Shown piece by piece: positions 3,001 through 63,856 of a DNA stretch of 64,000 bases. The stretch covers positions 11,960,501 through 12,024,500 of the forward strand of contig CP141146.1 in assembly GCA_035235625.1 (NCBI GenBank), given 5' to 3'. A program made the translations under genes and the position numbers. The notes under the pieces were generated by a model. That model ran no database searches. It saw only the letters and a program-made list of their open reading frames with translations, and was not told the DNA's origin. This stretch comes from Saururus chinensis. Lineage: Eukaryota; Streptophyta; Magnoliopsida; Piperales; Saururaceae. The number at the start of each line of letters is the position of its first letter. Within the stretch, counting starts at the first letter, position 1.

Positions 3001-3222
3001 ATATGTTCAACTTCGAACGATCGTATCTCCCTCATCTGAACTCCGTTTCACGTGTTCTTGGTGGCGTTTCAAAGCTATTTTCGTCTATTTTCCATCCATA
3101 TATGATTCAGCCACCACTTCCAACTGATGATCAGGTTATTCTCACAGGAAGATCAAGGGGTCCTACACCCTAATTTCCCCGTGGTTGCCTTCGGGAATTT
3201 TAGAAAATTCCCGGACGTTACA
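1..3222 (+). mobile_element. Long LTR (family A), 5' end outside window
   Basis: This sequence matches, over most of its length, the complete solo LTR at 51133-55561; base 1 corresponds to about 52191. It ends in a typical plant LTR terminus (GGACGTTACA) at 3222, and gypsy integrase coding sequence starts immediately after it. The 5' 460 bases or so are outside the window. The LTR therefore looks inserted into an older gypsy copy, with TGAGG at 3223-3227 as the expected target duplication; its partner lies outside the window. It holds a GC-rich stretch (about 2100-2560) with short degenerate repeats of the type CCTGCGCAGCC, and several ORFs of 60-100 codons that I regard as chance. It could be a solo LTR or one end of a full element. 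Confidence 0.8.
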
Positions 3223-5176: not shown

Positions 5177-8100
5177 ATGGAAAGGCAGGCAACGAGCCCC
5201 AGGTCGTCGAATTCCTCCGGGAGCGGCGAGATCGTCGACCCGACGCCCCTTCTGGCCGGGCAGGCCGCCGCCCGGGAGGACGGGGATCGGGCGAGACGCT
5301 TCGGGCGGATGGCCGGGGTGCGGGGGATGGCGCGCTTCCTTCGGCGGGCCGGCAGCCGGCGGGTCATGAGGGAGCCGTCGATGCGGGTGCGGGAGACGGC
5401 GGCGGAACAGCTGGAGGAGCGGCAGAGCGACTGGGCTTACTCCCGGCCGGTGGTGGTGCTGGACATCATCTGGAACCTCGCCTTCGTCGCCGTCGCTGCC
5501 GCCGTCCTGATGGTGAGCCGCGGAGAGTCGCCCGCGATACCGCTGAGGATCTGGGTCGTCGGGTACGCTCTGCAGTGCGTGTTGCACATCGTGTGCGTCT
5601 GTGTCGAGTACCGGAGGCGGCGAGGGGCGGCGGAGGATGGAAGGGAGAGTTGGGGTGCGGCGGATTCGGGGTCCGGCGTCGGCCAGAATGTGGAGGATGG
5701 TGATTCTTATGAAGCCCAGCATAATCAGGACACGGGAACGAGGTGTGTCAATGTTATTCAAATTATTGATTCTGATTGTTATGCTTGTTCTGTTGGTTTA
5801 GTAGTAAGTAGTATTGGATTCTGTATCTAGCAATACTGGTTTTAAACAGCTGCTTAGTTACAGTTACAGATATCGTGTATAGTTGACTCAACCATGTTCG
5901 AAATCTGTTCACTAGTGTTTGTTGAAGGTGATAAAATCAGCATTAGCGAGTTTATATATGGAATGACGTGTTAAATCCTACCTCTGCATCCACCTTGATG
6001 ATAGGAATTGGACATTCGTGATTTAACTGACACCCTTAGTTTAATGAATTTAATTGTGATGGGAAGCATGAATGATTGATTCAGGAAATGTTTTGTTGAA
6101 TCCTTTAGTCTTTGATGATTAGAACGTATTTATTACCAATAGATTTGTTTTGAATTGGTATGCAACTGTTTCACTCGTCTAGGAAATTTTCTTTTTATGT
6201 TGCAGGGTTTTTAACCTGGTGCATGGCTTTTGTTCATGACATGATTTTGGTGGATCAGACTAACGAGAGATTATTCGTATGGAAGGGGGCTCTGGAATCA
6301 AAGGGTCTCTTAAATAAGCATGCAAAAATGGGATATAAAATGCAGTTTTAGCGTAAAAACTACTTCTAGATGAACTGGCTATGGTTAAATTGCATGATCA
6401 ATAAATGCCTAGGTAAACCAATTTCAGAATGTATGCTCAGTATTTGACAGAAAAGGAGACATAAGGGATGTAGCCTATAGGATTGTAACAGCTTGGATAA
6501 TGTAGAGAGCAGCGTTCATGTTTCTTTCTGGCGAACTTATTCAGTTAAAGATCAGGAACAGTTCCATAGGACGGATAACCAACCATGCTATGTACAATTG
6601 AGTTTTGGGCATCAAAGAAGGGCAATCCTAATAGTATAGGTGTAGCTAAATGAAAATATTGTAATGAATGGGTGGAAATATTGAAGAGACGATATCTTAA
6701 TGATTGGTGTTTGAGATGGTTAGGCATGTAGGCAGGAGACCACAACGCCAGTCAGGAGATGTACTTACAGTTGTTTGGAGTGATTGAAGAGGGGAAGAGG
6801 AAGATTAAAAGATCATGGATGAAGCCTGTGAAAAGAGGCTTGCAAATAATTGTCTTAAGACTTGATATAACTTATCATCAAAACGGAGGGAGGGCAAGGT
6901 CTATTTCGTTAATCCCAGTTGACTGAGATATGTTCATGATAAACAGTTTGATGAGCTATTGTCATGGACGTGTGTACTTCTAATTTGGATATACTCTTTC
7001 GTGAAAAATTATTGTTCCTTCATTGAAGTTGAAGTGTTGTTAAAGTTTTTAGTTTTTACATAGGATTAAGTGAAAAGGAATTTGACATTTCTATTGATTA
7101 TGTACAATTTGGCATTCATTTATCAACTAAATTGTGATAATTGTTTCTAGTATATTTAGATGGTTTGAGTGGTATTTTGATTGATCACTTGAAGAGGCAT
7201 GTCACTTCTTTGGTTTATTTGGGAACATAGGGCCATCTAGATTTAATCTGAATTAATTGGTCTCCAAACTGCTTAAATTAAGGATACAATTTAGGACAAT
7301 GAGATGACTATAGAAGCTCTGGAAGGTTGTGGACATGTATCCTAAATTAGGACGGTTAATTAGGACAATTAGACATGTTAAGTCATGGCTTTAATTAATT
7401 AGGTGTAACTCATAAATAATTCCACCATGATCTCTGACACTGGAGTTGGCCAAAAGTATGTACATCATTGTTTGATTGTATTATAGTCAAATGATGATAG
7501 AGAATCAATGTGAAAAAAGATGGTGGTAAGATTTTATGGCAGATACACTTCCTAATAATAGTGTTCATGATAGAGTCATGTGAAAGACAATGCATGCATA
7601 TAATTGGTAGGTTTGTGCTTATCATTTTTTCCCATCCTGGGAAGATGAACTCCACAATGCCTATCAAATCTGTGTATCATGTTTAAATAATGATGCCCTG
7701 CTCGGCTTTTCACAAACAAATAGTAAACAATGATAAGTACCTCTAATATGTCTACGGCTCTATGCTAGCTCATTGCCCTAACAAGCACATATTTCACTTT
7801 TTTGTTTTTCTCTTCTGCATTTTTTTTAGTTTTATATGCCCTTCTTTATCCGTGTTTATGTAATATCAGAAATTCCCATTTGTCCATCTGTCTTTACTAT
7901 TTTCTTTATTGTTTCAGTGTTGCAAAGCACCTTGAGTCTGCAAACACAATGTTTTCATTTATATGGTGGATCATTGGGTTCTATTGGGTATCAGCCAGCC
8001 AAAATCTAGCCCATGATTCTCCTCAACTATATTGGTACGTTTTGTCTTGTTTCATCTATAGTTGATTTGAAATGTTTGTTTACCTGCGTGTGTTGTAACA

Positions 8101-13309: not shown

Positions 13310-15060
13310 TGGGTCCTAAGCATCTCAAGATAGCTTTGACAACCTTAAAGAAAAGCTTACTCAAGCTCCGAAACTTGCCCTAACTAATTTTAACAAGACC
13401 TTCGAGGTTGAGTGTGATGCATCCGAAGTGAGCATAGGGGTTGTCTTAACACAAAAGGGTAGGCAATTCTCTTATTTTAGTGCAAAGTTAAAGGGGGAAT
13501 TATATAGATAATGTTAAAAAAATTACCAAAATAGTAGAGAGATAAAAATATTTACCGAAATGGTGGTGGTTTTTGCCACGCAAGCACAAACCAGGTGCCT
13601 GTGTAGTTGGCGCTTATGTGGATTTTTCAAAAAAATTTAGGCGAAATCACATGTGCCTATGTGTTTTTTTTTAATTTAAATTTTTAGGTGATTTCGCCCT
13701 TTCAACTCAAAAGGACGAAATCAACTTCAATTGATTTCATTAGCAGACCGAAATTAAAGATGATTTCGTTCTTCGCAAGGACGAAATTAACTATCTTTAC
13801 TACCCAAGCTGCCTGTCTCTTCTATCACGCACTACTACACCCCCTTGACCCGAACCCGGTTTAGAATGGTGAGACAGGACATGACAAAGAGGAAAACTAA
13901 CCCATCCTGGGTTCTCATTGAACTATACAACACATGTCTTTCGTGCAAAAGCAAATAACGGAAGGTAAAAAAGATTAATTAACCATCTTAGTTTAACACA
14001 ACACCCACAAAATCTATATGAGCATAGTCTCAAGCTCTAAGGTTGCAACATGTCTAAAACCATCATAAGCTATCATCATGTCACACGACAAGTCTAAAAT
14101 AACCTAAGCATCTAACCCCTATTATGGCACATGCCCATTTTCAAGCTTGACATAAAGACTATCTGGAGCACTTGCATAACATAATATACAACTTCAAAAT
14201 AAAACCACAAATAAAAAACGTGTGAGCTTAGCTCAATAAGGGTTTTAAAACGAAACATAAACTCATGATAACATCATATGTATTCTTCCTATAAAAGTCT
14301 ATTTAAACATGAATCGCATATCTATTCTCTATGCCTATATATCATGAGATAAATCATATTCCATATATACATTCGCACAACCTGTGCATCATAGGTTTAT
14401 TCATAATTCATAACACATGCATAGCTTATGTAATAATTTAAATTTCATGGTTCATTCGCATCCTATATGAAGCAAATATCAACATTCACATTCACCCTAC
14501 ATAAACTTCTTTTGTAAACCACACATTTTGGGAATATTTTATTTAATTTTATATATTTCATATATTTTCTAATTACTCTATGTGTGGCTATCCAGGTGTT
14601 TTATATTTTGTTTTCATAGGGATTTGTTTCGGGGTTAAATAAATTTTTAAAAAATTAGTTTAATTTCGTCCTTTAAAATGATGAAATCAACAACAACCAT
14701 GCACATTTGCTAAAGGACGAAATCACCCATTTAAGGTGATTTCATCCTTCAGCAGGACGAAATCACCCATGACAAAATAGACTTCGCAAGGATGAAATCA
14801 ACCTTAAACTTATTGAAATTGCTAGTGCGTACATGACAAAAAATCAATATCATTTTAGTAAATATTTTCACCTCTATGCTATTTTGGTATTTTTTTAATA
14901 TTATTTATATAGTTTTCCCAAAGTAATGATGGAAGGAGGAAATGATTCGCCTCTAAACTATAATTATTTGCTTTGATCAAAGCCTTGAAACATTGGTAGC
15001 ATTACCTTGTGTTTAAAGAGTTTATCTTGCACATAGATCATAATTCTTTGAGCCATTTGC
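13310..15060 (+). pseudogene. Gypsy RNase H remnant split by a MULE
   Basis: RNase H would degrade the RNA of the RNA-DNA hybrid. The left part runs to about 13494 (FEVECDAS-type block as VECDASEVSIG, then SYFSAKLK) and the right part resumes at 14920. Between them lies the non-autonomous MULE at 13495-14919. Both parts carry stops. Confidence 0.65.
13495..14919. mobile_element. Non-autonomous Mutator-like element (MULE)
   Basis: A 1425-bp element with terminal inverted repeats of about 100 bp. The left end (GGGAATTATATAGATAATG) pairs with the reverse complement of the right end (GGGAAAACTATATAAATAAT), and the pairing continues through ACCAAAATAG and AAAATATTTAC. It contains no transposase. 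Subterminal imperfect palindromes of the type GATTTCGTCCTT...AAGGACGAAATC occur at about 13690, 13763, 14660 and 14715, as in the large MULE at 47629-63856. Flanks AAAGTTAAA (13484-13492) and AAAGTAATG (14920-14928) are only a rough target-duplication pair. It interrupts the gypsy RNase H. Confidence 0.8.
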
Positions 15061-45413: not shown

Positions 45414-46466
45414 TCAGTCAACACTCCGTGTGTTCTCCGCGTAGGAGATAGGAAAGCCAATAGCGACCCTTCCGTTCTCGTTCTTCTTATCGGAAATTTT
45501 GCCATCGCCGGCACCTTCTCCTGTGACGGCACCGGCATCTCCTGCAGCCTGCCGGCCTAGTGTGCTTGTGTTCTTGTAATCCACCATCTTGACAGCTAAG
45601 TTGATGATCCCGTTGGGCTCGCCACTCCTGTGCCACAGCCGATAACTCAGGAAGTGAACCAGGTGGGCCGGCACGTAGTTGGCGACAATGTCCGACATCG
45701 GAACGACTGCAACTCCGATCGCTTTGTAGCCAAAGGTCAACTTGTATCGGACCTCAACGATGAATGAGTGCCACCCAATCGCTGGCAGTGGAAGTCGCAG
45801 CATGTCGTCCCAGCACGGGTGGCTCCCACCGTTCCGGACGATGCTCGTGGACTTGGCGGCTGTCGGGCCCGTTCGGACGACGACGTAGGCGTTTCTGGGA
45901 ACACGGGAGCGGCGGCGAACCCAGAAGTCCTCGGCAGAGAGCCCGGTGATCTCCAGATATGGGCTTCTCGTATCCATCTTTTTTGGGCTCATGAGCTCGT
46001 TCAGCTCCATCTCCGCCTCCCGAATCTTATCCGGCGGTGGCGCCAGCCAGCGGGCGACTGAATCTGCAGGTGCGCCCTCCAGCTTGACAGCCAGGTTGAT
46101 GATCCCTTTCGACTCCCCTCGCCCGTCTTTGAGCCGGTAGCTCAGAAGGCGGACGACTCTGGTGGTTGTCTCGAAGCCTGAAACGACGTCTGACAAGGGA
46201 ACGGTGGCCGCAGCGACCACTCTCTTCCCGAAAACCGACTTGCGATGCACCCTGACTGAGAAGGAGGAGGCCGGCACAACAGCCTTAGCTATCAGTGGGA
46301 TCCAGAGGGCTTGGTTCCAGTGAGGGGAGCTCCCACCGGCAGGATCGAGGCATGTGGACATGACGTTGTCGAGGCCCATGCAGACAGTGACGAAGGCGCT
46401 GTCGCCGGCGGAGAAGAGGCCTACTGGGAGGCCTTCAGCGGAGAGTACAGTCACCTCTACGCCCAT
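45414..46466 (-). CDS. Tandem two-C2-domain protein (SRC2/BAP-like)
   Basis: An intronless 350-residue protein with two related C2 domains, at about residues 1-130 and 168-292. C2 domains bind membranes or partner proteins, some through calcium. Each repeat ends in the same signature (RLLSYRLKDGRGESKGIINL and HFLSYRLWHRSGEPNGIINL), which is typical of plant SRC2- and BAP-like C2 proteins. Those usually carry one such domain, so this looks like an internal duplication. I do not see the usual acidic cluster of calcium-binding loops in either repeat, so binding may be calcium-independent. The 58-residue tail is Gly/Ala/Lys-rich. ATG at 46466-46464 is the first Met of the open frame. The gene is GC-rich against AT-rich flanks. 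It is convergent with the MUN gene, 1.6 kb apart. Its function is unknown. Confidence 0.85.
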   Translation of the reverse strand: MGVEVTVLSAEGLPVGLFSAGDSAFVTVCMGLDNVMSTCLDPAGGSSPHWNQALWIPLIAKAVVPASSFSVRVHRKSVFGKRVVAAATVPLSDVVSGFETTTRVVRLLSYRLKDGRGESKGIINLAVKLEGAPADSVARWLAPPPDKIREAEMELNELMSPKKMDTRSPYLEITGLSAEDFWVRRRSRVPRNAYVVVRTGPTAAKSTSIVRNGGSHPCWDDMLRLPLPAIGWHSFIVEVRYKLTFGYKAIGVAVVPMSDIVANYVPAHLVHFLSYRLWHRSGEPNGIINLAVKMVDYKNTSTLGRQAAGDAGAVTGEGAGDGKISDKKNENGRVAIGFPISYAENTRSVD

Positions 46467-46480
46467 CTCTTCAAACTCTC

Positions 46481-46534
46481 TCTCTCTCCGCAGCTCAAGT
46501 CGGGCTTTCTCTCTCTCTGCAGCTCAAGTCGGGC
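46481..46534 (-). repeat. Duplicated 25-bp unit in C2 gene leader
   Basis: Two units, 46481-46505 and 46510-46534, share TCTCTCTC[CT]GCAGCTCAAG and then TCGGGC on the plus strand, differing at about one base. On the transcribed strand they form GAGAGA runs in the 5' leader. Confidence 0.85.
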
Positions 46535-47628: not shown

Positions 47629-47931
47629 GGGAAAATTATTTAAATAATAATTTTTTAAAAATATTTACCAAATCAACTCATTTTGGAAAATATTTCTTAA
47701 AGTTGTGTTGTTTTTTGCCACGTAGGTGCCCGCGGTTTAGCTGGCGCCTGCATGACTTTTTTAAAAAAATAATTATATAATTTCATTCTTTAGAGGGATG
47801 AAATCAAATTTTAGTTGATTTCATTGTTCCAAAAAATAAAATCAGGTTACAACAAATTAAGCCGATTTCGTCCTTTAAAAAGAGAAAATCAGCTTAAGGC
47901 TATTTCTTCGTCCTTCTAAAGGACGAAATCG
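47629..47931 (+). repeat. MULE left terminal inverted repeat
   Basis: Pairs with 63575-63856 in inverted orientation. Shared blocks in order are GGGAAAATTATTTAAA, TTTGGAAAATATTTC, TTGCCACGTAGGTGCC, AAAATCAGGTTACAA, AAATCAGCTTAAGGC and CCTTCTAAAGGACGAAATCG. Confidence 0.88.
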
Positions 47932-48060
47932 CACCCTTGTAGTTGGACGCGCACAAGTTTTAGATATAAGTTGATTTCGTCCTTCTAAATGACAAAATCA
48001 CCAAACTGACTTTTAACTGATTTTGTCTTTTAGAAAGACGAAATCTAATTCAAATTTTTT
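47785..48060. repeat. Subterminal palindrome array, left
   Basis: About six imperfect palindromes of the form GATTTCGTCCTT...AAGGACGAAATC, at roughly 47790, 47818, 47866, 47905, 47972 and 48021. Each is about 25-29 bases long. Similar units lie inside the right end and in the small MULE at 13495-14919. They could be transposase-binding or hairpin-forming sites. Confidence 0.8.
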
Positions 48061-48499
48061 TTAAAATGCTTTTAAACCAAATTTAACACATGTCCTTGTT
48101 CATTCATTCAATTCATTCAACACATTATACAAATACACCTATCCCCTGTTCATTCATTCCATGCATATGTTTAAATTAACATCTATAAAATATCAAACTT
48201 ATCTATATTAACTATTATTCACATAACATTAAAGTTATCGACATCAACCATCATCTGCACAACATAAAAACAAACATAAGATATAAATATTTATAAAATA
48301 TATTACATCACATGTTAATAAAATGTTTAGTTCAAAAGAAGCATATGACAAATCTAATCAATGTCACGATCTCCTACGTCCTCAACCTCGACCCCGACGC
48401 TGTTGTACGAGCTCTTCCTCATGGTCTACCTACTCCTCATGATCTGCCTGCTCCGGCTATGGCTCTGGCTCTAGCTCCGACACTGCATAAGTAATAGAT

Positions 48500-50636
48500 G
48501 GCTCAACACGAGTTGGCCTGATGTCGTCTATAATATAATATCGAATCTGGCTCGGGATTAGCTAAATGTGGAGTGGCCAGAAATGATGAACGGGGAGGAG
48601 AGCTATGCGCTACTAATAAAGATGGAATATCAGAGAATGAATCGTGCCTTTGCTGTGTCTGAGCGGCCTCGATGATAGGATAATGTCTATGAACATCCGT
48701 AATCACAGATTGAAGCAGTGGCAAGCTACGAAGGACATCATCATGCTCCTTAAGCATCGACTGACATGATGCTAAAAAGTCCTCACTCGAAGTACAGGTG
48801 TTAATTGTGTAAGTCAAATGTTCATGTGTACGTTGCGCTAAACAAAGCTATAAAAAAAATTAAAAATCAAATAAATAATAAATAAGAAATAAGAAAAAAA
48901 TATGTGCCTTAATTAACAAAGTTATACTTACCAAAGCTGCCTCAGACGCATCCCTAGGCTGATATGTCATCTCCTCTACTTCATCGCGCTATAAAATATA
49001 TCACCGTGTAATTGATAAATACCACTGCATATATGCGCTACGAACATCTCGCGATGTTGTAGCCATCTCGCGATGTTATAGCCATCTCCCCATGGATAAC
49101 AATGACTCTCCTATCATCCCATCAAGTGATATATGTTTCATGATGTATAGCCCAATCAGTAATATGGCGGCCCTGTCAAGTGATGCGATGGATAAACTCG
49201 ACGGTAGAAGGTGGGACCACTTGCTCCAGGTTTAACTGGAGCATTACACGATGCAGCACATACATCTCTATAATTTTGTAACAAATTAGTGGCGTTTGCG
49301 ATAGCCACACATCTCGATCGTGGGTTCATATAGGAGGTAACACAGCCAATACTTTTGGTGAGTACAGCTGCCAAATAACCTATACAATATATAAAGATAA
49401 TTAAGTTTAAATAACCTCACATATCTTATAATCATTGTAAAAAAGTTAATACTAAAATAAAATTACCTGATATGGCCGCTAGTGGTCTAACTCCCATCTA
49501 TATAATTGGAGGACTCCTTGTGGATTTTCGGTTTTCCTTTTTCGAACATTCCACCTTAAGGAGTTAAATTTAAAAAATAAGTTCAGCATATGTAAATAAA
49601 ACCTTGCTAAAAAAATTAAGTGTTAAAAATAAATAGAGCCTACCTCGCTCCTAATGGAGCACCCTCGACTAAGTTACCCATTTCAATACTTGGTCGACCG
49701 AAGTGTAAATGCTCCCACGACCATAGCTGTGTCACAAAATATGATAAAAGTTATTAAAAAATTAAAGAATTATACGTGCAAAAAAACATTTGAAGTTACG
49801 AATTCATTTACTTGAAGAAGGGTCAGACAACCTACAATCCTTGAGGTCATGGCCTGACATGCTTTCCCTAACTCTCGGTATAAAAAAGCAAGAGTAGCAC
49901 TACCCCATGAATAAGCACCAGCCATGTCGAAGTCCGCAAGGAGGGAGAGATATGAAACATGTACATGGCTACTTGTGGTATCCGCAAATATTGTGGCCCC
50001 AAGTAAATGTAATAAATAAGCACGTATATGCTGCTTGATAACTACCTCTGTAGCATCCACTGGGAGCTCACGAAACTCGCCTAATAGCCATCAAAGACTC
50101 ACTTGGCTACCACACATCACTGTGGCAGGAGGAGTTCTACCAAGGAGTCTAACTAATAAGTCTAAATGACCTCCTCCTGTCGTGCCCATCACAGGAGCTC
50201 AATCGATGCGAAGTCCTAATAGAACTGCCACATCCATAAGAGTGATGGTCATCTCTCCATAGGGTAGGTGAAACGTCTGCATCTCCCTCCTCCATCTATC
50301 AACAAGAGCTGTCAATAAAGGCCAATCCAGACGAACATACTATAGATCAATGAACTGTCTAAATCTTGATTGCTCGATATATGGTAACATACGCTCATCT
50401 ACAAGCCAATGGCGGAGATATCTAAAATGTTTGGTGCACTCAAGGCACCCGAGGTCCTATAATAAATTTTAAAATTATAACCCAACGTAATTTATAATCT
50501 AAAAAAATGAAACAAATTTTATAAAGAGTTATCATACCTCTCCTCACCAAATAGAAGCCGACTTATGCGACTCCTACTGGACAAGTACTGACTCATCAAT
50601 CGGGCTTGGCACGTAAAAAGGCTCTACATGATCCAT
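48500..50636 (-). pseudogene. Plant mobile domain (PMD) gene in MULE, inactivated
   Basis: Reads from ATG 50636 as a MAIN-like plant mobile domain protein, a family of nuclear proteins linked to silencing and also found inside transposons. Likely exons are about 50636-50540 (starts MDHVEPFYV, SASIW), 50463-49810 (RHWLVDERMLPYIEQSRF, RWRREMQTFHLPYGEMTITL, DVAVLLGLRID, AGAYSWGSATLAFLYRELG), 49735-49640 (WSWEHLHFGRPS), 49560-49465, 49385-49150 (RDVWLSQTPLICYKIIEM) and smaller ones to about 48500. At least five stops break it, for example after ESVLVQ and after LLGLRID. The order of blocks fits the full PMD fold. It follows the transposase by about 80 bases on the same strand, which suggests it belongs to the element. 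Exon edges are approximate. Confidence 0.78.
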
Positions 50637-51132
50637 ATGATCTATGGAGAATTAAGATCGTTAGGAACATATAATCATACCTAAACTAGAAAAAAAAATA
50701 AAAATATTGATTATATGTTTACCAATCAACAGAAGGGTTTCTACATAATTTACTATTATGCCCACTTTGTTTGCACCTCCCGCATTTATACCTCCTCTAT
50801 CATCTCTCTCTATAGTCATACGGTCCATTGTATTCCTAATGCGAACAGACCGTGGGCGACCGGGTTATCTTGTTGCTCTCGGAGGGAATAACACATAAGG
50901 TATATCCCTCTCCCAATACTCCCAACCACGAGGATAATAGAATTGTGCCGAGTACACATTTTTGTACGCGGTAGATGTGTAACAAAGTCCTACCTGTATA
51001 GGCTCTCGCCGTTGTCCCCACACTGCAATAAGATGCAAATAAGGATACAAATAGACCTGAGGGATATTGCATGTACAAGTATGAACCATCGCATTCACCA
51101 CAACCTTCCGGCTACGAATTGACATCACTTCG

Positions 51133-54100
51133 TGTCTTGACCCAGATTTTTTAAAAGCATTTTAAAATAACACAAATGGTAAGTTGAAAGAATATTTTTT
51201 CTTAAATACAAAACAAACCATTTGATTAAATATCCAGGTCATGATAATTGGGGTTCACAAATACAGATATCAAATCATATGATATTTACACATCTTAAAA
51301 ATTCAACAACAGCTCATCCATCTAAGTACAAGTAGGGCTGCATCTTGGGTAGGGTAGTGTCGGGTAATGCAGTACCCGACCCTACCCAAGATAGAACCCG
51401 AGATCCCTATACCCGACCCTACCGAGATAGAACCTGAGATTCCTATACCCGACCCTACCCGAGATAAAACCCGACCCTACCCGAGAACCCGAGATAAAAC
51501 CCAGGTTAAATTAATTTTCTACTAAACCTAACAATTCAAATAACAAATTTATAATCACATAGCACCATTAAACATTTTACTTATAAAAAACCAAGAATTA
51601 CTACTTATAATAAACTATTGTTCCTTAATAACTATTGTATTAAACATATTAGAAATTTATATAGAGTTAGCCACATCATGACGCCTAATCCAAAGCAATT
51701 AGAGTAATGAGATTTAGGTTCATGTAGAGATGTATAATGTTGAGTCAGGTTGAGTCGGGTTCTCGGGTTTTTTTTTGTTAAACCCGACCCGACCCGAAAA
51801 GGATGCAGGTTTTTTTTTTCAAACCCTTCCCGACCCGAGATAGTACCCGACCCGCCCCGAACCTGGTCAATTTTGGGTCGGTTCCACCCGGGTCGGTTGG
51901 GTCCGGGTTTTTTGTGCAGCCTTAAGTACAAGTCTGTCACCCGTCTGAAAATAAATAACAAGTTGACTCTCACGCTAAAGGTACACTTACATACTGAAGT
52001 TGCAAAAACGCATAAACTTCTTCTTGTGCTCACCTGTCTTGGTGTCACTTGTCGTCGCCTGGAGAATCTGCAACCAAGCAAACCAAACAACAACCACAAC
52101 AACAATGAAACCTCTCTGCCCTTAGCAAAAGAGCTTCCAAAGAACAAAAAGTTTAATTAATATTTTTCAGATCGGGCCAACATCACCCGATGTTAGTTGC
52201 CTACGTACTCATCAAACAACATCTCCAATATTTCGAATAAGATCGAATCCAGGCGTAGTTTTGCCTAAAAACTACTCTATCCTAAGAAGCATGACATCAC
52301 ACATGCAATGCTTAGGTATTTTAACCAACCTACATTTTAGTAAGTCCTTTAATAGTTCTACTTGTCTAATTAACAAACAATATCAAACAATGTTATTAAT
52401 TATCTCACATGCCTTGTTCGATAATTAATACTATCAAATCTTTAACTCAGAGATAACTCGCCCCTTGAGAAATCTCCAAACAAAAGACTCTAACCTTAGA
52501 GTAGACTGCTTAACAGCAGCTTAACCCAAATCCTCATGGCTCTCAATCTGGAGAAGAGGATCTCAACTGTGCTCATGGACACAAATTGGAAACACAAGCC
52601 TTCCATGATGCTCATTTAACTCCGTTTTTTGTACGTACTAAATAGTCCTGGGAAGACCTGCAAGAGACCCATGGTAAAGACCCTCTAGTCAATACCCAAA
52701 CTGTCGTGGTGATGAAGAAGCATATCGCAATCTCCATCATCCCAACTCTGGGAGAAAATGTCTCATAAGACATTACTAATATATCCATAGAAGCCTTAGG
52801 TCTTTATGACCATTGACTCCCCCAAACATTTGAACTTAGACTAGATTGTTTCCATCCAGTCAAGTATCTGCTAAACCATTTGGGTCCTTTTCACCTTGTG
52901 AATCAGCCCAATAAATAGCTCATCTACTGAGCTATAACTTAGAGAACATCCCGTAACCACCCTCAGTTCATTAACCAAGGTAAAATTCTATGTCAGGGCC
53001 CCGTTCACTCCATGAACGTGTCCCCACCCTAATGAGGGTATTTTAGTCATTATCTTGATTAAGTGTTCTCCCCCAATCCGACTGCAACCCATGTCTCTTG
53101 ATTAAACTTCATTAATCTTAAGTTACTCATAAAAATCAATGCATCGATAACAAATACAAGCATAAGAGTAAATAACATATATACTATGCAATCACACAGG
53201 TACATAGATAATAAACAGAGGCCCGTTGCACTCATTTGCAGGGCCAGGGCTCAGAGAATTCAAGCCCGAAAGTGTAATTAACTCTAACACATCGCATGAG
53301 TTACGTATTTAATACTCTAGTTGATCGATGTACTCGGTTGCAGACATGTGTAATCCGCAGCCCTAAACCTTGAGAATTATGGTCATTCCCCTTGTTTCTC
53401 GTGACACTATGACCTAACAAAGTCTTCGTGTCACTTACTAGTCACATCCCTTCCTTTTGAAGTCATTCCACATCACTATAATGTACCCTAATGCTTAGTG
53501 GTTAGGTAATTAGTTTCAACAGAAACATAACATACTGCCCCCTAAGGGCATTAGGGTAATTCTACCACTTAGGGTATGCTACCCTCCCTTGGGTCATTTG
53601 GTCATCTCACTACCCTTCTATTTATTTTAAGTCATTAACCTTTTAGAAGGCTCCACTTTCCAACTGACTCACGCTTCTATTCACACGAATGTCAGCTGCT
53701 TACTCAAAGGGTATTCTTGTCATTTGGTTTAAAGCCTTATTGATATCTGACGGGTCCAAAATTGAACTCAAGCATACTACTTGACTTCATGGACTCTGTG
53801 TAATTTTCCTGGCATGTTACGGGGTCGTGAACCCCTTGAACCGACCCAGGTTTTGACTAATGGTTTATTATAAACCCTAAGGACAAAATGGTTAATTAAC
53901 CACCTGGGATTTTTATTCAATAAGAAATTTGGCCTATAATTAGGTAACCAATCTGACTCTCATTGAGAATTTTTTCAATTTTTAAATCAACTCTTTGGCC
54001 CCTGAACTAGAGCACCGAAATCTGGTAAGTTAATATTATACGATAATTAAACAAACAAGGGTAAAAAGGTCATTTTACAGTCCCTAAGATTTTTCCCGGG

Positions 54101-55561
54101 CCTGAAACTTGGTCAGAATACTCCCACACCTATTAGGGTCCTTGAGTAGTTTTCTAGAATAATTTTGTCACTTATAACACTATGAACCGGACCTGGTTCA
54201 ACTCATTCTTTATATTTTTTTTTATAAACCCGAGTCGGGTCTGCAGTTCCACCCCGAAACGGGCTAGACCCGTAGACCCGCATGCGGGTCATCTTCCTCG
54301 TGGAGACGCCCACAGGGCCGTGGGCAGCGATTGGATCAAATCCAACCACCACCGGCTGGGCTCTCTAGTCACCGGCGGAATCCTTCCGCTGGAGGATTGT
54401 CAGATCTGCTTGCCGAATCCGAAGCCGCTGTCCGGAGTAACGCTAATTTGCAATCTCGAAAACTACTCGTGAAACGATGGCATCTTCTGGCCGCTGGCTA
54501 GTGTAATGGCAGCCGTGACCGGGAGCAAGGCCGGGTCTGGTCGAATCGCCTCCAAGCGGCAAACCTCACGGACCCAGTTTCGCTTTTGTCCAACGGCCGC
54601 CGGCCGATGTTGATGCTCCCCACAGTTGCCCTTCTCCATCCACGAACAGAATTTCTGGCGGACATAGCGGCCACCACGGCCGGAACCTAGGCAAAGGTTG
54701 TCTGATTCCTCGCCAAGCGCCGAATCCGACTAACCCAGTCTCCTCTGCTGGTAGTTGGCTGCACTGCATCTGCCCAAAGAAGGGCTCTGCCTTCCCTCCT
54801 TCGTGCCAAATAGCACGACCGCGGCTAACTGCCAGGCCAGACGTGGATGGATCGCTGCCACGCGATGATCCCCATAGTGCTAGTCCACCACCGGCAGATG
54901 GCTGTCTAGCCTCCGCCCTCCTATGTTCCTCAGATTTGGATGCTGGACTGCGCCGACTGTGACTATTCTATTGCACCCCGTTGAAATGATGACCATATTA
55001 ATGTAATGAAATTAATACGAAGTTGTAAATCTTACCTCGCAAAACACCCGTGTTTGTCATCGATCCACTGCCCCCAACGCTTTGCCTGATTGTCGCCGAA
55101 AAAATCCTATGACGGCTCCTCCTCCTTTCCTTAATCATCAAAAGACAACCTCCCTTCCATTAGCCCTAATTAGCCTTTTAATAAGCATAGAGATTAGGGT
55201 TTCTATTCCCATTAAGAGTTGGGCTAATTGGGCAACTTGGACATATTTTTTAATAATTTCCGTCACCATAAATAATTGGGCCCGTAACATGACTTAAACG
55301 GCCAATTTACGCGTCTGATTCGGGTAAACGGGTCTTGTATGCTATATATAACTTCGAATAGTCGTAATTCCCTCAACCGAACTCCAATTCGCGCATTCTT
55401 GGAGGCGTTTCGAAGATCTTTCTGTCTACTTTCTATCCATATAGGTTTCACCTACAAGTTCCAAACGTTGATCAAGTTATTCTAATGAGAAGTTTAAGGG
55501 GTCCAACACCTTAATTTCCCGTGGTCAACTTCTAGAATTTAGAAAATTCCCAAACGTTGCA
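51133..55561 (+). mobile_element. Solo LTR, family A, 4.4 kb
   Basis: Begins TGTCTTGACCC at 51133 and ends CAAACGTTGCA at 55561, with perfect 5-bp target duplications CTTCG (51128-51132 and 55562-55566). No internal retrotransposon sequence is present, so it is a solo LTR left by recombination. It aligns with 1-3222 from about 52191 on and, at its start, with 17258-18115. Discounting the nested hAT, the LTR is about 3.8 kb. It disrupts the MULE transposase. ORFs inside it (for example 51750-52160 and 54566-54769) match no protein I know. Confidence 0.93.
51333..51924. mobile_element. Non-autonomous hAT element, 592 bp, in solo LTR
   Basis: Ends TAGGGCTGCA and TGCAGCCTTA are inverted repeats with one mismatch. 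Perfect 8-bp target duplications AGTACAAG flank it (51325-51332 and 51925-51932). The interior has repeated ACCCGACCCTACCCGAGA-like motifs on the left and inverted GGGTCGGGT-type motifs on the right, and no coding sequence. It is the youngest resolvable layer of this nest: hAT in LTR in MULE. Confidence 0.92.
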
Positions 55562-57672
55562 CTTCGTAGTCATTGTTGTTGATCCTATTAACTATATACT
55601 CCCCAAATTTTCTTCTTTATTCTAATTATCGCTTTCACTCTAGGAGTATATGGGGTGGCCATGGCAGATGCAACAAAAGATCATTTAACAAAAAAAATTA
55701 CTACCCTATAAAAAGTAGCTGACACTAAAGCCTGCATGGGTAATCCTTGGGCCCCCTTCAAGACGCTATTTAAACTTTCAGCCATATTTGTAGTCATCAT
55801 GCCAAATCTCTTAAAACCATTGTGAGCAAGAGAGCATTGTGCAGGATGCAATTCTCAACCTAAGAGGAGATGTTTTGCCCTAGGACTCTCTTGACCAATC
55901 AAGTCCATTTTAGCATCAAACTTTTCTACCGTAAGTGCACAAGTTGCAGCCCCAATCAAGTCTGTCAGTGTACCATTTTTAAACTCCTTCTTAAAATTTG
56001 CCTTTATGTGGCAGATGCAATAATGATAGTAGTACGTAGGCTCGGGAAGAACCTTAGGCACAACCTTCTGAAGCCCCTTATGTCGATCTAAAATAACTAT
56101 AATATTTGGCAACCCCATCAATACATGATCCCTCGGTTTACTTAAGAACCATTTCCAATTGTCTCCATCTTCCTTTCCGACTATCCCAAATGCTATATGA
56201 AACTCATTGTTTCTGTCTGTCGCAGTTGCAGCCATAAGAGCTCCGGGATACCGGCCATACAAGTGAGTGGCATCAAAACCAATCACTATGATGCAATGTC
56301 GAAACCCCACTATAGACGGCCCAAATGCCCAAAACAACCGCTTAAATCTCCTATACATGCCACCATATGGCTGAGTTAATTCATCATACTCTAAGTTGTA
56401 GTAGGTGCTTGTATTCACTTCTTGCACTGCCCTGAGGTACATTGGGAATAATTTGTATAATTCCACCCAATCCTCATAAATGACCTTTATAGTCATATTC
56501 CTTGTTGCCCATGCTTTCTTATAAGATATGTCGACATGAAATATCTCATTTATTCTTTGAATAATATCACCTAGTGTGAGAGTTAATTCAGCTTAGATAA
56601 CGGGCATTATGACCTTCAAAACAAATGATGTACTGCACTGCCTATGATCTGTGCTATGCTGGGCATTTCGACATGTGTAGTCACCTCTGTATGTATTCAA
56701 TTTAAAGTACCCTCCACCCCTTTTTATTGAGCCATGAACTCTCCAAGGGCAAATACTATCAATGCACTTCACTGTATACTCTGACAAATTTGTGCGTACA
56801 ACCTTGTATTTGACATGATTTTTAATGGAAAACTCTTGTAAGGCTGTAACAAATGCTTCTTTATTCTCAAAGATGTGGCCAACATATAACTCATCTTCGT
56901 TTTGTTGGTCCATATCCATGGCAGAATTAATTGATGCATCCATCTCCTCATCTGTGATGTGTGCATAGAGTGGCTCCTCTTCATAGTATGACGGCTCTTC
57001 ATGATCCACATTCATATCATTTGTGGCAATTGCATTGTCTACCACATCATCCTCCTCGCCATTAACCATCTGTTGAGTGTTTTCTTCACCTCTGGCCCCT
57101 TCTTCGTTTATGTCAGAATCTTCTTCACTTGCTTAGCCAATATTATCTTCACCTTCATTGGCCTCATTTCCATCAATATCTTCATCGTGGACATAAGCGC
57201 CCCTACATATGAACATCGCATATGTATTAAATTTCATATGACTTAACCCCTTCTTTAAAGCCTAAAAATGTTATATTCATTTATGAATATATATTTGACC
57301 TTTGATGGGATGGTCTAGCATCGGTATGACCAAGACATGTGTAGGGGTAATGAATGCCTATTGAACTTTGAGTTCCATACCATGAACCGCCTTTAGACAT
57401 TTGAAAGCTAAATGGCTCGTGTGCATGCGATGTGTACCTTCCATATTACACACAAAATTCAAAATTTAGCGTCCTATATTTCATTGATAATTATAAGATT
57501 AAAAAAGGATTCACAACTTAATAAACCTTACCTCCAATTAGGTCCACTTCCATCGTCAATAAGGGTAGAAGACCTATGACGTTCATTAAAGCTACTGTCA
57601 TAGATAAATTTTCTTCTTCTTCATCGTCCACCGACATTTGCATATGTCTTTCATTGTTCACATTTCTTTCAG

Positions 57673-57722
57673 AGCTCTTGTGTGAGCTCCTGTGAGAGCT
57701 CCTATGTGAGCTCCGGTGTGAA
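57673..57722 (-). repeat. Short GAGCTC repeat in transposase N-terminus
   Basis: Three to four copies of a 12-bp unit close to GAGCTCCTGTGA. On the minus strand they read as an Arg-Ser-Ser-His repeat within the N-terminal region of the transposase. Confidence 0.7.
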
Positions 57723-59049
57723 CTACTTCACCTTTCACTAGGCACTCAGGCCTCTTTTTCGAGAAATAACTCGAAACAAATTATGTGATGCGAGTGGTGA
57801 AACATAAAACTCATTGATGCATCATCATTTATACATATTAGTCCCATTCTCAATCTATATGTCGGGATATTACAGTATATAGTAATTTTGCATCTTCTTC
57901 GATCCCACCCAACCTTGCTAGCTACTTGTATCTCAAATTCATTATATGTAGACGGTTTCTAATTAATAATCCTTCTGTACATTCATCATAGTTAAATAAA
58001 AAACTAACCATTTCTTCTGCCATCTCTACTCAATTCATAAACAATAGACTACATTAATATTAGATTATACAATTGTCTCAAAATAACTACTTTACTTAAC
58101 GTAACATGAGATTATCAACTCAACAATTATATATATAAGCTAACAAACATATGCAATACCAAACAATAAAGAATAATTAGGAAGAGTAACCGTGTCTATT
58201 AATTCGGCACAAACATTTTATTGGTTTTTAAATTTTTTCATGTCTGCATCTTATCAACTTGGTCGCATTGAAATCACAGCCCACAATCACGGGCATCACC
58301 CAAGTTGTTCATGAGTGAAACAAAGTTGGAGGACAGGAAATCAATCAACGCCCGAAATTGAAATTAGGGCAAAGAACACCGGCGAAATCAGGGAAAATGA
58401 ACTTGAAATACGATGGAGGACGGGATATGGTGTCACGCCCGAGGTTTTCCACACATTTAATTTAAAATCTTACAAATATTTTATTTCAAAATATGGACGT
58501 AAATCAAATAAACCAACAAAATTCAAAATGTGTAAACGGTTTTCGTAGACATACGACAAAAATAACATTCTCAGGTGTGACCTAATACAAAAGCATACGA
58601 ATAAAATCTACCATGGCCATGGGTTTCGAAAACAAAAACCTCCCAGACATCTCTGAGTACAAGTTATTTCACAGTCTTAAAATCATTCATACATACATGT
58701 ACAAGTCCAGTATATACAACATTTCTCTCACCTTAAACAATACATGAGATCGTAGCACCAAACTTCACATAATCTCACCGCGATTTTGTTGCACTCCAAG
58801 TCGAGGAAGTATTATCCACCACAGGAAAAGTCCAGTCTTAGCAACTAACGATTGACCTGCAAAAGCCTCTAGTCGAAGGGGCTAAAAAAATGGGGTGAGT
58901 ATTTTCATACTCAGTAGGAAAATACCCAGTAGGGGAAAAATATAGATCAATGAACTCTATAAGTTCATATACAGATGCTTCCATGCAATCACACATGAAG
59001 CAAAAAGAATCAGAAGTATAAATATGGTCACGCATACAAATCATCGTAC

Positions 59050-59300
59050 AAATCGAACTTATACTTACTCATATATCAAGCTCTTACACTTACACTCTAA
59101 ATCAGTCTTATCAGCTTACTCGTACAAACGTACGCTTACACTTATAACATACACATACTCGTATGACCTTATTCGTACGAACTCACTTGTACGACCTTAC
59201 TCGTACAATCTTACTCAGGCTCATAAACTTACTCTTACTGTCTTCCAAAGAAGCTCACACTTACTCTAAATATTACACGTATAACTTACTCAGAATCTGA
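59050..59300 (+). repeat. TACTCGTACGA-type short repeats in LTR B
   Basis: Degenerate repeats built on ACTCGTACGACCTT and CTTACTCGTACAA occur at irregular spacing, most regularly at 59155-59210. Confidence 0.65.
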
Positions 59301-59542
59301 AACATACTAACTCTTACTATCGAACACATACTACCGACAACTGAAGCTCATTACAATTAATAAGCTCCAGCGTCAGAAAGGAGAGGAATGCCACGGGGGC
59401 GTCACTTTAACCTTCGGGGAGCAACTAGACACCATGGACTTTTCCGAATGCAAGGCACACCTGCTAATGGGGCATAGGATCAAACAGGTAAGAGCAGGTC
59501 CATGATACTGCTTACCTGAGCGCGCAAATGCCCACTCTTTGG

Positions 59543-59770
59543 GGCCATACATTGCCAACAAGGGCCATACAATGCCAACTAAGGGCGGAAAACATACAGT
59601 GCCACTATTGGGCAAGAATCTTACAGTGCCAATCTTGGGCAGAACATACAGTGCCATCTATAGGCCGAAAACATATAGAGCTCATGAAGGGCGGAAACTT
59701 ACAGCACTCTCAATAGAGCATCAAACGTCTGGGCCGAAACACGACACCAAGACTAAATCGAAAACATACA
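59543..59770 (+). repeat. About 30-bp degenerate tandem repeat in LTR B
   Basis: Six to seven units of the type ACATACAGTGCCAACTATGG followed by GC[CG]GAAA, spaced 25-35 bases, run through this segment and decay at the right end (GCACTCTCAATAGAGC). Confidence 0.75.
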
Positions 59771-62700
59771 TACGATTGCTCTCAACAGAGCATCAGACGT
59801 CAGGTGCTCTATATAGCACACAGACAACATCCTGCAGGATAAACACCATGGCTAGACCAGGAAGGACACTCAATCGATTACTTATCGACTAGCTCAAAAC
59901 GGAACTTAATCCGTCGAAACCCTCAGTCTCGAACTTACAACGTTACCAATTAGGGTTAATTACCATTCAAGTTTATATTAGATAACTTATGCATGTACAA
60001 TTATGCTCGAAAAGACTACTATCTTACATTCTTTATCCAACCAGGCTAGAAATACTCCCGTCCCAAAGTTCCAATCCACAAAGGTAGAATTTCTTTACTT
60101 AACTCATCCCCCACTCTTACACTTACAACCTTACCGATCTCTACATAGCCTTCCTTACTTAAACTCGAATTCCATACTGATAATCTTACCATCATACACT
60201 CATGGCTTTACAACTTACACCATCCACCTTAAAACTGAATATTCTTACTCAAACTCCTCAAATGAGACCCTTTTTGACCTAAGTCCTGTCATCAAACCCT
60301 TACTAATTCCTTACTCATTATTCTTTCATTATAATTCATATTACGTACATTTGCATGTACAACTATGCCATTACCTCTTACTAACTCACAATCCCCTAAA
60401 AGTACTCAGAATCTTAAGTCTTCAATTCTTTGCATCCCCCACGTCTCCTACTCGTCACTCGAATGTGCCGTCTGACTCAAACTGAACAACTTCTCCAATT
60501 TCATCAAATCCAGCATTTGTCTTTCAATCTTATCTTTCCTTGCCCGACATACAATCATGGTTTCCACGTTATAACTTACGAAGTACCCCTTAGCCAAACT
60601 TACTATCAAATACTTCTACTCATGCCCATCGATCGTATACTATCAATCCACAATGAAAATCACACACTTTGGTCACATACACACGATTCATAGTAACTTA
60701 CTACGTGCCCTTAGTCTTCACTAACATACACACACAAATCATATACATACATGCTTTTATAAGCAACATAATCATGCAAACATTAAATTATAAACTCCTA
60801 GCATGCTACTACACAAACAAAGCATGCTATAATAAAATTACGAGTTCAAGGTCCCCTACTTCGTAATCCACAGGAGTTTGATGTCGAGCAAACAATGGTG
60901 GTGGCGTCGATAGCGGATTAGGCGGCTAAAAGCATCGCACTGAGAGAGTTGTTGTGTCTCGAGGATTTTCAAAGATGCTGGAATTAAGCTTGATAATGTT
61001 AGATTAATTTTACTCGAAGCCAAAGGTTTGGACGCACTAAGGCAGACAGACACAAGGGCGTGCCACTAGAAATGGCAGTGACCACCGAAAGGGGGCTGAC
61101 TGATTGGAGGTCGCACAACGGTTTAAAAACACTTTGTTGGTGACAAAACATTAAAATGGACAGCGGACCATAATCAACGACAACAATTCTGCATTAATGA
61201 AGCCTCACCACATGGCAGAGGGCTTGCTTGCACACATATAGACATAGGAGAGACGGAGGGCTTTAACGGCCATATTGCCTAATGGTGGGGACGTTCCATA
61301 AACATACGTTGATGCACTAAGGCTTGGCGCAAGTGGCCGGCAAGGGCGGCGCCATTTCTAAACGCTACCTACAACCAATTCATCGTACGGGCGATCGTGC
61401 ATCAAGCACGGCTTACGGTGGAAGATATGGCATGACATCGGTCGAGCCATTGATGGACCAAGTTTAATGGCTGACTGTGTTACTTCTGCTTGGAAGGATC
61501 TGAATTCGAGGACTCTTTCCTCGTATGTTTCGGGTCGTGTGTAATAGAAAGTGGGGGTACAAAGGTAAATTTGGGCTAGAAGTGCTGGCCCTAATCATCA
61601 CTGGGTCGGGGCAGAGCCCATGTTGGTTGGATCTATAGCCCAAGTTCACGTGATATCAAGCTAGACACGTTGGCTTGAGTTGAAGCGAAGCCCATCAGTG
61701 ACAGTCATAGATGTACCCCATAGTTTAGGGCGTCTAGTGTGTGCAGAAGACATGCAGAGGAGGCCGGAAGCTGGGCCTCTTTCTGATTTTGGTCAAACCA
61801 ACATCCGTAGTTGTCTGCTAGCCGATGTCGAGCAACAGAACACCTGGTAAGAGAAACAAAGAGACCCGATTTAACCGGGGTGATAGTGTATCGAGTCGGG
61901 GCACAGACACGCATCGCAGGGCCATGAACGGCCGATGGGGCTAGGGGTCAAACTTCGAATACGGCTGTGATTCAATAATCACAAATTGCTGCGAGCTGAA
62001 TGGACACCGATCGGTGTTCGTCTGAAGTCTAACGGTGGTGAATCGACACCACTAGACTGAAACTGTGTCTTGGACTAAACGGAGCAATGCGGCCGAAGAG
62101 AGGAGAATGGTGCAAGAGTTCGTTGTCGGCCCGAGGTGGAGCCGGAGGTCCTCTGGCTATTCACAACCACAGAAAACAAAAGGGAAACAAACACGATCTG
62201 TCCGATCGGAAAATAGCGGAAGGAGGGGTGCCAAACCGGGGGAGGCGGCAGCCTTGCCATCGTCGGTCCAAGAGAAGGCCAACGGCCAAAGACTAGCGGC
62301 ACAACACACTAAAAAAAAGGGAATTTTTATCCCGTTTCAAATATTGCAGAGGGGGCTGAAGGAGGCGGCGACCAGGGCGATGGTAGGGGCGGCAGCCTCA
62401 CCGTCGCTGGATTGAGGGGAGGGCCAAAGGCCTGTCACCGTGGCTGGCCACCGGTGGCACAGCCGACGGCCACAACACCCAGTAACCGGACAAAACAACA
62501 AAAAAGAAAACATTGCCCGTCTAGATTGGAAAACGACGGAAGGAGAGGTGGCTGCCAGGGGAGACGGTGGTCCGGTTTGGGGGTGGTGGTCTTGTCATTG
62601 CCGGGCCGGAAGAGAGCCAGAGGCCCGGCGGCGGCAGCCGGCGACCAGCGGCACAGCAGCAGGTCGCAGTGAACAGAAAATCGAAAAACAAAGGCGGGGT

Positions 62701-63504
62701 GGCGGAATTTTACCTCACGGCGGCAAAGCAGGGGCGGGGAGACCGGGACAGAGTGTCTAGAGGCAATCTTGGTCAGGGCGGAGCAAGGGTGAAGAGATGG
62801 TGGCCATGCAACAGCCGATGGCGGCGAATCGGGGTAGAAACCATGATTCGGTCTCTGTTCAGCTGAAACAAAAAAAAAAAGAAACGGGGTGGTGGCGGCC
62901 GGCGGGGCCAGGCTAGGGAGGTGGCGGCGATGTCGCCAGGCTAAGGCTGACCGGGCGGAAGCCTGCCGCCGGTAGTCCCTCCGGCCTCACACAGAGAAAA
63001 CTGCCTCTGCTTTCACTGTTCCTCCAGTGGGTCGGGCGTGTTGAGGCGCACCCGATCCGCTTTATGTATTTTTTTTCTTTTTTTTTCATTTTTCTTTCTT
63101 TCTTCCTGTTTATGTTCTCACGTGTCCCATTCGATTTTTGTGCCGAAAAAATTTATGGGATGCGTCAAGACCCATGACCTGTGACTAAGCACGACTCCCA
63201 ATACTTACAGACACGAATATTACAAATACGGATACGCCGAAGCGTAAATTTCTTTATCGAAAATACGAGCAGAAAACTGCAGAATATTGCAAAAATTGTA
63301 GAAAGTAGCAGAAAAATATAGAAAATTACAGAAAAATCGGGGATGTTACATATAGGAGGGCAAAGGACACCGGAGGACGGGATCTTGGCGGTAGTGCTCA
63401 AACACGAAGCATGGTGACGGGGCGGAAAGGGGAACGAGCACGGAGCATAAATGAGTGTAGGATGATTGGGAGCAGAGAAGCGGAGTCGGGTTAAAAACAA
63501 AGAC

Positions 63505-63715
63505 AATTTCGTCCTTTAAAAAGACGAAATCACATTTGGCTTCGACAGACTAAAGGGCGAATTGCGAAGTATGACGATTTCGTCCTTTAGAAGGACAATT
63601 GCCTTAAGCTGATTTTGTCATTTACTTAATCTATTGTAACCTGATTTTGTCCTTTGGAAGGACAAAATCAACTTATACTTGATTTCGTCCTTCCAAAAGA
63701 CAAAATCATATATTT
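63505..63715. repeat. Subterminal palindrome array, right
   Basis: Units of the GATTTCGTCCTT...AAGGACGAAATC type at about 63507, 63575, 63643 and 63680, with a half unit at about 63610. They are the counterparts of the array at 47785-48060. Confidence 0.8.
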
Positions 63716-63856
63716 TTTTTATAAAAAAGCCACGCAGGCGCCAACGACTTAGCTGGCACCTACGTGGCAAAAAGCAACACTACTTTGGGAAATATTTTCC
63801 AAAGTGGGTTGATTTGATAAATATTTTTTAAAAATTATAATTTAAATAATTTTCCC
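63575..63856 (-). repeat. MULE right terminal inverted repeat
   Basis: Inverted partner of 47629-47931. It contains an internal hairpin (63731-63770) in which GCCACGCAGGCGCC faces GGCACCTACGTGGC. Confidence 0.88.

Follow-up and report, generated by a model that had tools for sequence, protein, structure and literature searches.

Mutator-like elements (MULEs) that carry a plant mobile domain (PMD) are known as a kind. Ikeda et al. 2017 (PMC5418596) describe PMD-C fused to MULE transposases in several grasses and in Amborella, infer two captures and refer to Babu et al. 2006 for the first PMD-MULE, in agreement with an earlier note on the present locus, which had stated that PMDs are reported from plant transposons. 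Here we analyse a MULE at positions 47629–63856 of a 64,000-nucleotide stretch of Saururus chinensis contig CP141146.1 (the window), in which long inverted repeats enclose a transposase gene and a PMD gene, both on the minus strand. The element is an old, decayed copy of an abundant, autonomous-type MULE family with two genes, one of them for a MURA-like transposase, and genome-wide sequence comparison indicates that the PMD is very probably a selected second gene of that family.

Several described systems share features with this family. Pack-MULEs likewise hold host-derived sequence within MULE ends; they have no transposase and what they hold is usually fragmentary, whereas the window family keeps a transposase and a nearly whole PMD, with selection between subfamilies. 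VANDAL MULEs are similar in that they carry a non-transposase gene, and we know of no PMD in VANC. For VANC21, anti-silencing has been reported, directed at the silencing of its own VANDAL family (PMC8616336), whereas for the PMD of the window family such a function is conjecture. In PMD-bearing Ty3/Gypsy elements, too, a mobile element carries the PMD as an additional domain (PMC5418596, PMC9289625), but these are retrotransposons with PMDs of clade A, whereas the window family is a DNA transposon with intron-like gaps in its PMD. Closest are the PMD-C fusions of grasses and Amborella, in which a MULE transposase likewise adjoins the PMD (PMC5418596); those are described as fusion proteins, whereas the window family has two open reading frames (ORFs), set apart by a gap of ~95 nt and, in 25 of 29 copies, by a stop. 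A literature search covering titles and abstract openings, with most subscription journals outside it, found no report on selection on, or copy number of, PMD-MULEs.

Two genes within one pair of terminal repeats

The ends of the element had been placed at 47629 (GGGAAAATT...) and 63856 (...AATTTTCCC), and both boundaries are correct. The repeat arms can be aligned over ~370 nt with a score of 392, compared with a maximum of 100 among 300 randomised pairs, which bears out the claim that inverted repeats enclose both genes; the outermost ~180 nt agree at ~84% (150 matches, 28 mismatches and 1 gap). Both ends start with GGGAAAATT and have palindromes of the type GATTTCGTCCTT..AAAGGACGAAATC immediately inside. 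Ten palindromes of this type occur in the window, where none is expected, and eight of them lie in the ends of this element. A genome search with the PMD-side repeat, in which 40 of 2101 candidates were scored, gave at least 39 matches at 38 places beyond the window's own two ends. Scans of viral contigs with the repeat motif and with a PMD piece found no relative.

The window transposase contains a Mutator DNA-binding domain (DBD_Tnp_Mut) and a MULE DDE domain, both detected by Pfam (Table 1). The domain order given in the earlier note, DBD–DDE–SWIM–zinc knuckle, holds for these two; the CCHC knuckle scores under its family cut-off, and the window copy has a SWIM-like stretch without a Pfam match, SWIM being detected in the homologous part of another copy, L039 (E = 9.4e-6). 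Together with the terminal inverted repeats, the two detected domains are those expected of the Mutator superfamily. The 9-bp target duplication typical of that superfamily is present in other members of the family (L040 and L043, below) and is not visible around the window copy, where the best candidate matches at 6 of 9 positions and is of low complexity.

The window PMD is a nearly full-length plant mobile domain: with its pieces joined and stops entered as X, it matches PF10536 over profile positions 5–324 of 347 (255 bits, cut-off 34.9; E = 1.1e-75). It is interrupted by four AT-rich GT...AG gaps of 81, 85, 89 and 87 nt, at all four of which the flanking reading frames are consistent, and an additional 84-nt gap lies near the tail. 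A PDB search with one PMD piece returned nothing up to E = 1. The transposase and the PMD lie on the same strand, 81 nt apart, as against the 'about 80 bases' first noticed, and this gap resembles the PMD's other gaps in length and base composition.

We searched the assembly from which the window derives (516,460,831 bases in 11 contigs) for both genes. PF10536 has at least 186 matches, a lower bound because 117 of 2740 first-look candidates were scored; at 30 loci selected by their PMD, tblastn with pieces of the window located transposase matches within a 1.5-kb flank in 26. Selection by transposase, rather than by PMD, is the fair direction of the test. The DDE domain has at least 150 scored matches out of 3177 candidates, the window's own included, and the best 30 of these 150 were chosen by the window DDE piece alone. 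A PMD lies on the same strand and at similar spacing in 29 of the 30, and the sole exception, L044, is the window copy itself, in which an insertion shifts the PMD outside the flank. The junction between the genes, written as the pattern GTTGATTGGTAA-N60-90-AGATCATATGGATCATG, occurs at 240 places in the genome (121 + 119), and the reversed control pattern at none.

Five longer stretches were also compared, of which four (L039, L040, L042 and L043) are MULE copies and the fifth, L041, belongs to another PMD family; strict terminal-repeat alignment was applied to L039, L040 and L043. Directly outside the GGGAAA...TTTCCC ends of L040 and L043, and thus around both genes, stand 9-bp duplications matching at 9 of 9 positions (TAAATCATT and TTAAAATAA, respectively), and by coordinates the transposed units measure 6.9 kb and 6.7 kb. 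The arms of L039 align with 296 matches, 18 mismatches and 58 gap positions. Both genes of this copy lie in long open stretches (Pfam: MULE 1e-19; SWIM as given above; PMD 6e-51 and 3.4e-19), its transposase being broken into two pieces by one stop. Several other transposase matches fall within open frames of up to 735 amino acids, the matched part being free of stops.

The 29 paired loci, the 240 junctions and the complete duplications of L040 and L043 support what the earlier note had argued from order and closeness, namely that the PMD belongs to the element and does not adjoin it by chance. That note had named PMD-less relatives, with the PMD matching a unique host locus, as the finding that would count against it, and none was seen among the loci examined. 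Its proposed search for further elements with the same ends yielded eight loci chosen by the left repeat, of which two are the window's own ends; a PMD piece lies within the flank in two of the other six. The remaining four have neither gene within the flank and are uninterpretable, because the flank cannot separate the transposase side of an element from a non-autonomous copy.

Co-divergence of the two genes and selection on the PMD

Pairwise distances were compared at the 29 transposase-selected loci other than the window copy (L044), which was left out because its PMD falls outside the flank. Transposase and PMD distances covary closely (Mantel r = 0.954; none of 5000 permutations as high), and the clusters obtained from the two genes are concordant except for one locus, L068, which stands alone by transposase and groups with L052, L053 and L058 by PMD. 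The co-divergence that the earlier note had proposed to look for is thus present, but it is not strict.

Selection was assessed as the ratio of non-synonymous to synonymous substitution rates (dN/dS), with codons containing stops or gaps excluded; the PMD part compared comprises a portion of the first two exon-like pieces (~200 codons). Among pairs with dS > 0.15, the median dN/dS is 0.18 for the transposase (113 of 406 pairs) and 0.20 for the PMD (124 of 406). Because the 406 pairs are not independent, five representatives were also compared singly. Transposase dN/dS is 0.13–0.30 in all ten of their pairs, and PMD dN/dS is 0.19–0.30 in the seven between-cluster pairs (each p < 1e-4). As the PMD is linked to the transposase in 29 of 30 loci and has a dN/dS of about 0.2 between subfamilies, these comparisons argue strongly for the PMD as a selected second gene of a two-gene element.

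Several results weigh against this reading or narrow it. No transposase lies within the 1.5-kb flank at four of the 30 PMD-selected loci (L003, L010, L018 and L026), and the 30 transposase-selected loci are those closest to the window transposase, so that more distant relatives could be without a PMD. For the transposed unit, L039 lacks a clear 9-bp duplication, and L042 yielded no inverted pair and was for that reason left out of the strict alignment; a 51 by 51 offset scan of the AT-rich flanks of L040 and L043 gives further 9/9 matches, and the weight of the duplications therefore lies in their position at the exact ends. As to co-divergence, dS between L068 and L052 or L053 is 0.05–0.07 for the PMD and 0.19–0.22 for the transposase (0.07 and 0.22, respectively, for L068 and L053), and between clusters the PMD dS is 1.5 to 2.2 times the transposase dS. 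Because L068 groups differently by its two genes and these dS values are unequal, the PMD part seems to have been exchanged between subfamilies as a module. Finally, L052, L053 and L068 compared with one another (three pairs) give PMD dN/dS values of 0.64–0.84, indistinguishable from 1, although their transposase dN/dS is 0.15–0.30. By these codon counts, purifying selection on the PMD is clear on older branches and not measurable on recent ones.

Possible roles of the PMD

The host PMD proteins MAIN and MAIL1 act with PP7L in gene expression and silencing (PMC7156037, PMC8616336). Anti-silencing by MULE-borne PMDs was proposed by Ikeda et al. in 2017, a speculation that the earlier note shares, and the question of whether transposon-borne PMDs benefit the element was raised in the same paper (PMC5418596) and again in a 2021 review (PMC8616336). 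By analogy with the VANC proteins of VANDAL MULEs, the PMD of the window family may support persistence of the element; its target in trans would be host silencing, where it would compete with MAIN/MAIL1 or imitate them. We put forward this role as a trans-acting counter-silencer tentatively; if it is true, copies would spread by using one of the host's own silencing modules against it. In the family marked by the 240 junctions, selection on the PMD can be measured, the two-ORF anatomy is conserved and subfamilies seemingly exchange the PMD, so that natural variants could serve to test the counter-silencing idea. That the family represents all of this at once, namely a case in which a MULE and a MAIN/MAIL-like PMD came together independently for a third time, outside the grasses and Amborella, and in which the PMD is a separate, selected and module-shuffled counter-silencer gene present in hundreds of copies, is a compound proposal that we consider unlikely to hold in full.

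The evidence of linkage and selection is equally what would be seen if the PMD were an intrinsic transposition accessory, for instance one that takes part in binding or targeting with the transposase and is unrelated to silencing, and no result here bears on silencing. Other MULEs have accessory genes, such as mudrB and VANB. However, silencing and expression are the processes in which MAIN and MAIL1 of the host take part, and the available portion of PMC7156037 reports no transposition role for them; an accessory function is conceivable, and we regard it with some doubt.

A further question is whether splicing joins the two genes into one fused protein, like those that Ikeda et al. report from grasses and Amborella (PMC5418596). 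The stretch separating the transposase from the PMD is bounded by GT and AG, as are the gaps inside the PMD, and a second GTAAAC within the zinc knuckle, part of a string found at 28 of 29 loci, would by hand inspection allow an in-frame join to the PMD acceptor. That join would, however, destroy the knuckle, and the obvious GT donor leads to a stop whether it is spliced (TG|A) or left unspliced (TGG TAA; both read by hand). The transposase frame runs to an exact GTTGATTGGTAA (...VDW-stop) in 25 of 29 copies, and in 22 of those 25 the AG before the PMD start is also matched, 94–99 nt on and five bases before the ATG. A simple spliced fusion across the 81-nt gap was rejected on the frame misfit at the window knuckle and on the stop in those 25 other copies, and a fused product of any kind appears quite improbable. 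Because the transposase frame is closed ahead of the PMD start in those 25 of 29 copies, two separate products are a simpler reading of the two ORFs than a fusion, and probably the right one. The PMD would then be made from a shared transcript, or from a splice form using the AG five bases upstream of its ATG.

It is very unlikely that the PMD is a functionless passenger, a host fragment captured by transduplication in the manner of Pack-MULEs. Capture of genes by MULEs is known, Ikeda et al. infer capture of a genic PMD-C (PMC5418596), the intron-like gaps of the PMD fit capture at the DNA level, and three recent pairs have a PMD dN/dS of 0.64–0.84; against it stand the presence of the PMD beside the transposase in 29 of the 30 transposase-selected loci and at 240 junctions, and a dN/dS between subfamilies like that of the transposase. 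As for the PMD being a mere neighbour of the transposase, whether as a unique gene of the host or as a piece of a nested Ty3/Gypsy element, LTR-type (long terminal repeat) insertions do lie inside and upstream of the transposase and PMDs are known in Gypsy elements (PMC9289625), but insertion A (Table 1) has its own CTTCG duplication with the PMD beyond it, which rules out a Gypsy-borne PMD, while the paired loci and junctions rule out chance and both genes sit inside the duplications of L040 and L043, so that we set this last explanation aside as practically eliminated.

The window copy and its surroundings

Decay of the window copy is evident in both genes, each of which contains stops (nine within the five PMD pieces) and frame changes. 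Two LTR-type insertions of 4.4 and 4.9 kb enlarge a 6869-bp element to 16.2 kb, and the transposase reading frame picks up again past the CTTCG duplication of insertion A. The coordinates of all features are collected in Table 1. The small element nested in insertion A is one that we take to belong to the hAT superfamily, judging by its ends and the length of its duplication.

Table 1 Features of the MULE at 47629–63856 and of the insertions within it (window coordinates)
Feature	Position	Strand	Evidence
PMD-side terminal inverted repeat with subterminal GATTTCGTCC..GGACGAAATC palindromes	47629..47999	.	End-to-end alignment, palindromes
PMD C-terminal tail beyond the domain	48503..48847	-	By eye homologous to L039 6509-7039
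PMD exon-like piece 5, profile to ~324, one frame change near end	48932..49379	-	
PMD exon-like piece 4	49467..49554	-	
PMD exon-like piece 3	49644..49726	-	
PMD exon-like piece 2, profile ~5-181	49812..50456	-	PF10536 1.3e-17 and 1.3e-20 (two open pieces)
PMD exon-like piece 1, with ATG	50538..50641	-	
Transposase-PMD gap, GT...AG, 81 nt	50642..50722	-	Gap length and ends
Transposase C-terminus: SWIM-like stretch and CCHC zinc knuckle	50723..51132	-	Knuckle 7e-4 (under cut-off); SWIM via L039
LTR-type insertion A, TG...CA, 4429 bp, splits transposase, foreign to MULE	51133..55561	.	5-bp duplication CTTCG at 51128-51132 and 55562-55566
Small hAT-like element nested in insertion A	51333..51924	.	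Perfect 8-bp duplication AGTACAAG; ends TAGGGCTGCA/TGCAGCCTTA
Transposase region DDE-to-SWIM, stops and frameshift	55567..55854	-	Coding continues past CTTCG duplication (...NNNDYE / EVMSIRS...)
Transposase MULE DDE domain	55855..56592	-	PF10551 4.1e-13
Transposase acidic N-terminal part and DBD_Tnp_Mut	56593..57132	-	PF03108 4e-12
LTR-type insertion B, TG...CA, 4920 bp, between transposase start and right repeat, foreign to MULE	58431..63350	.	5-bp duplication with one mismatch, TATGG/TATAG
Transposase-side terminal inverted repeat	63505..63856	.	End-to-end alignment, palindromes

Window positions 1–3222 and 52187–55561 are diverged copies (~75–80%) of a very long LTR-like repeat; the former is a diverged partial copy of insertion A and continues, by eye, into Gypsy integrase-like sequence.

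The window also holds one related element that lacks a PMD, at 13493–14919; it is likewise without a transposase-sized ORF. This is a 1.4-kb non-autonomous MULE with the same type of ends and subterminal palindromes, a longest open stretch of 58 amino acids and flanks (AAAGTTAAA / AAAGTAATG) that match at 6 of 9 positions. By eye, it seems to lie inside the reverse-transcriptase gene of a retrotransposon.

Elsewhere in the genome, the PMD at 2938–4250 of L041 belongs to a second, distinct repetitive PMD family, found at dozens of places with >70% identity, of which L003 is also a member. By eye, its gaps lie at positions like those in the PMD of the MULE family, and 6.5 kb of sequence held no inverted pair; we considered it as a single-copy host source of the MULE PMD and rejected it, being repetitive itself. 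An ORF at 5753–6355 (minus strand) of the same stretch appears OTU-protease-like by eye, with no Pfam match. An organelle-type rbcL piece of the same genome (L074) scores 672.6 bits against 1ej7 and 1rlc (tobacco) and 668.4 bits against 1wdd (rice), a difference too small to settle the affinity of the host. In the window, an open frame at 45414–46523 (minus strand) contains two C2-domain stretches (1.1e-9) and has a GC content at third codon positions of 0.70, unlike its AT-rich surroundings.

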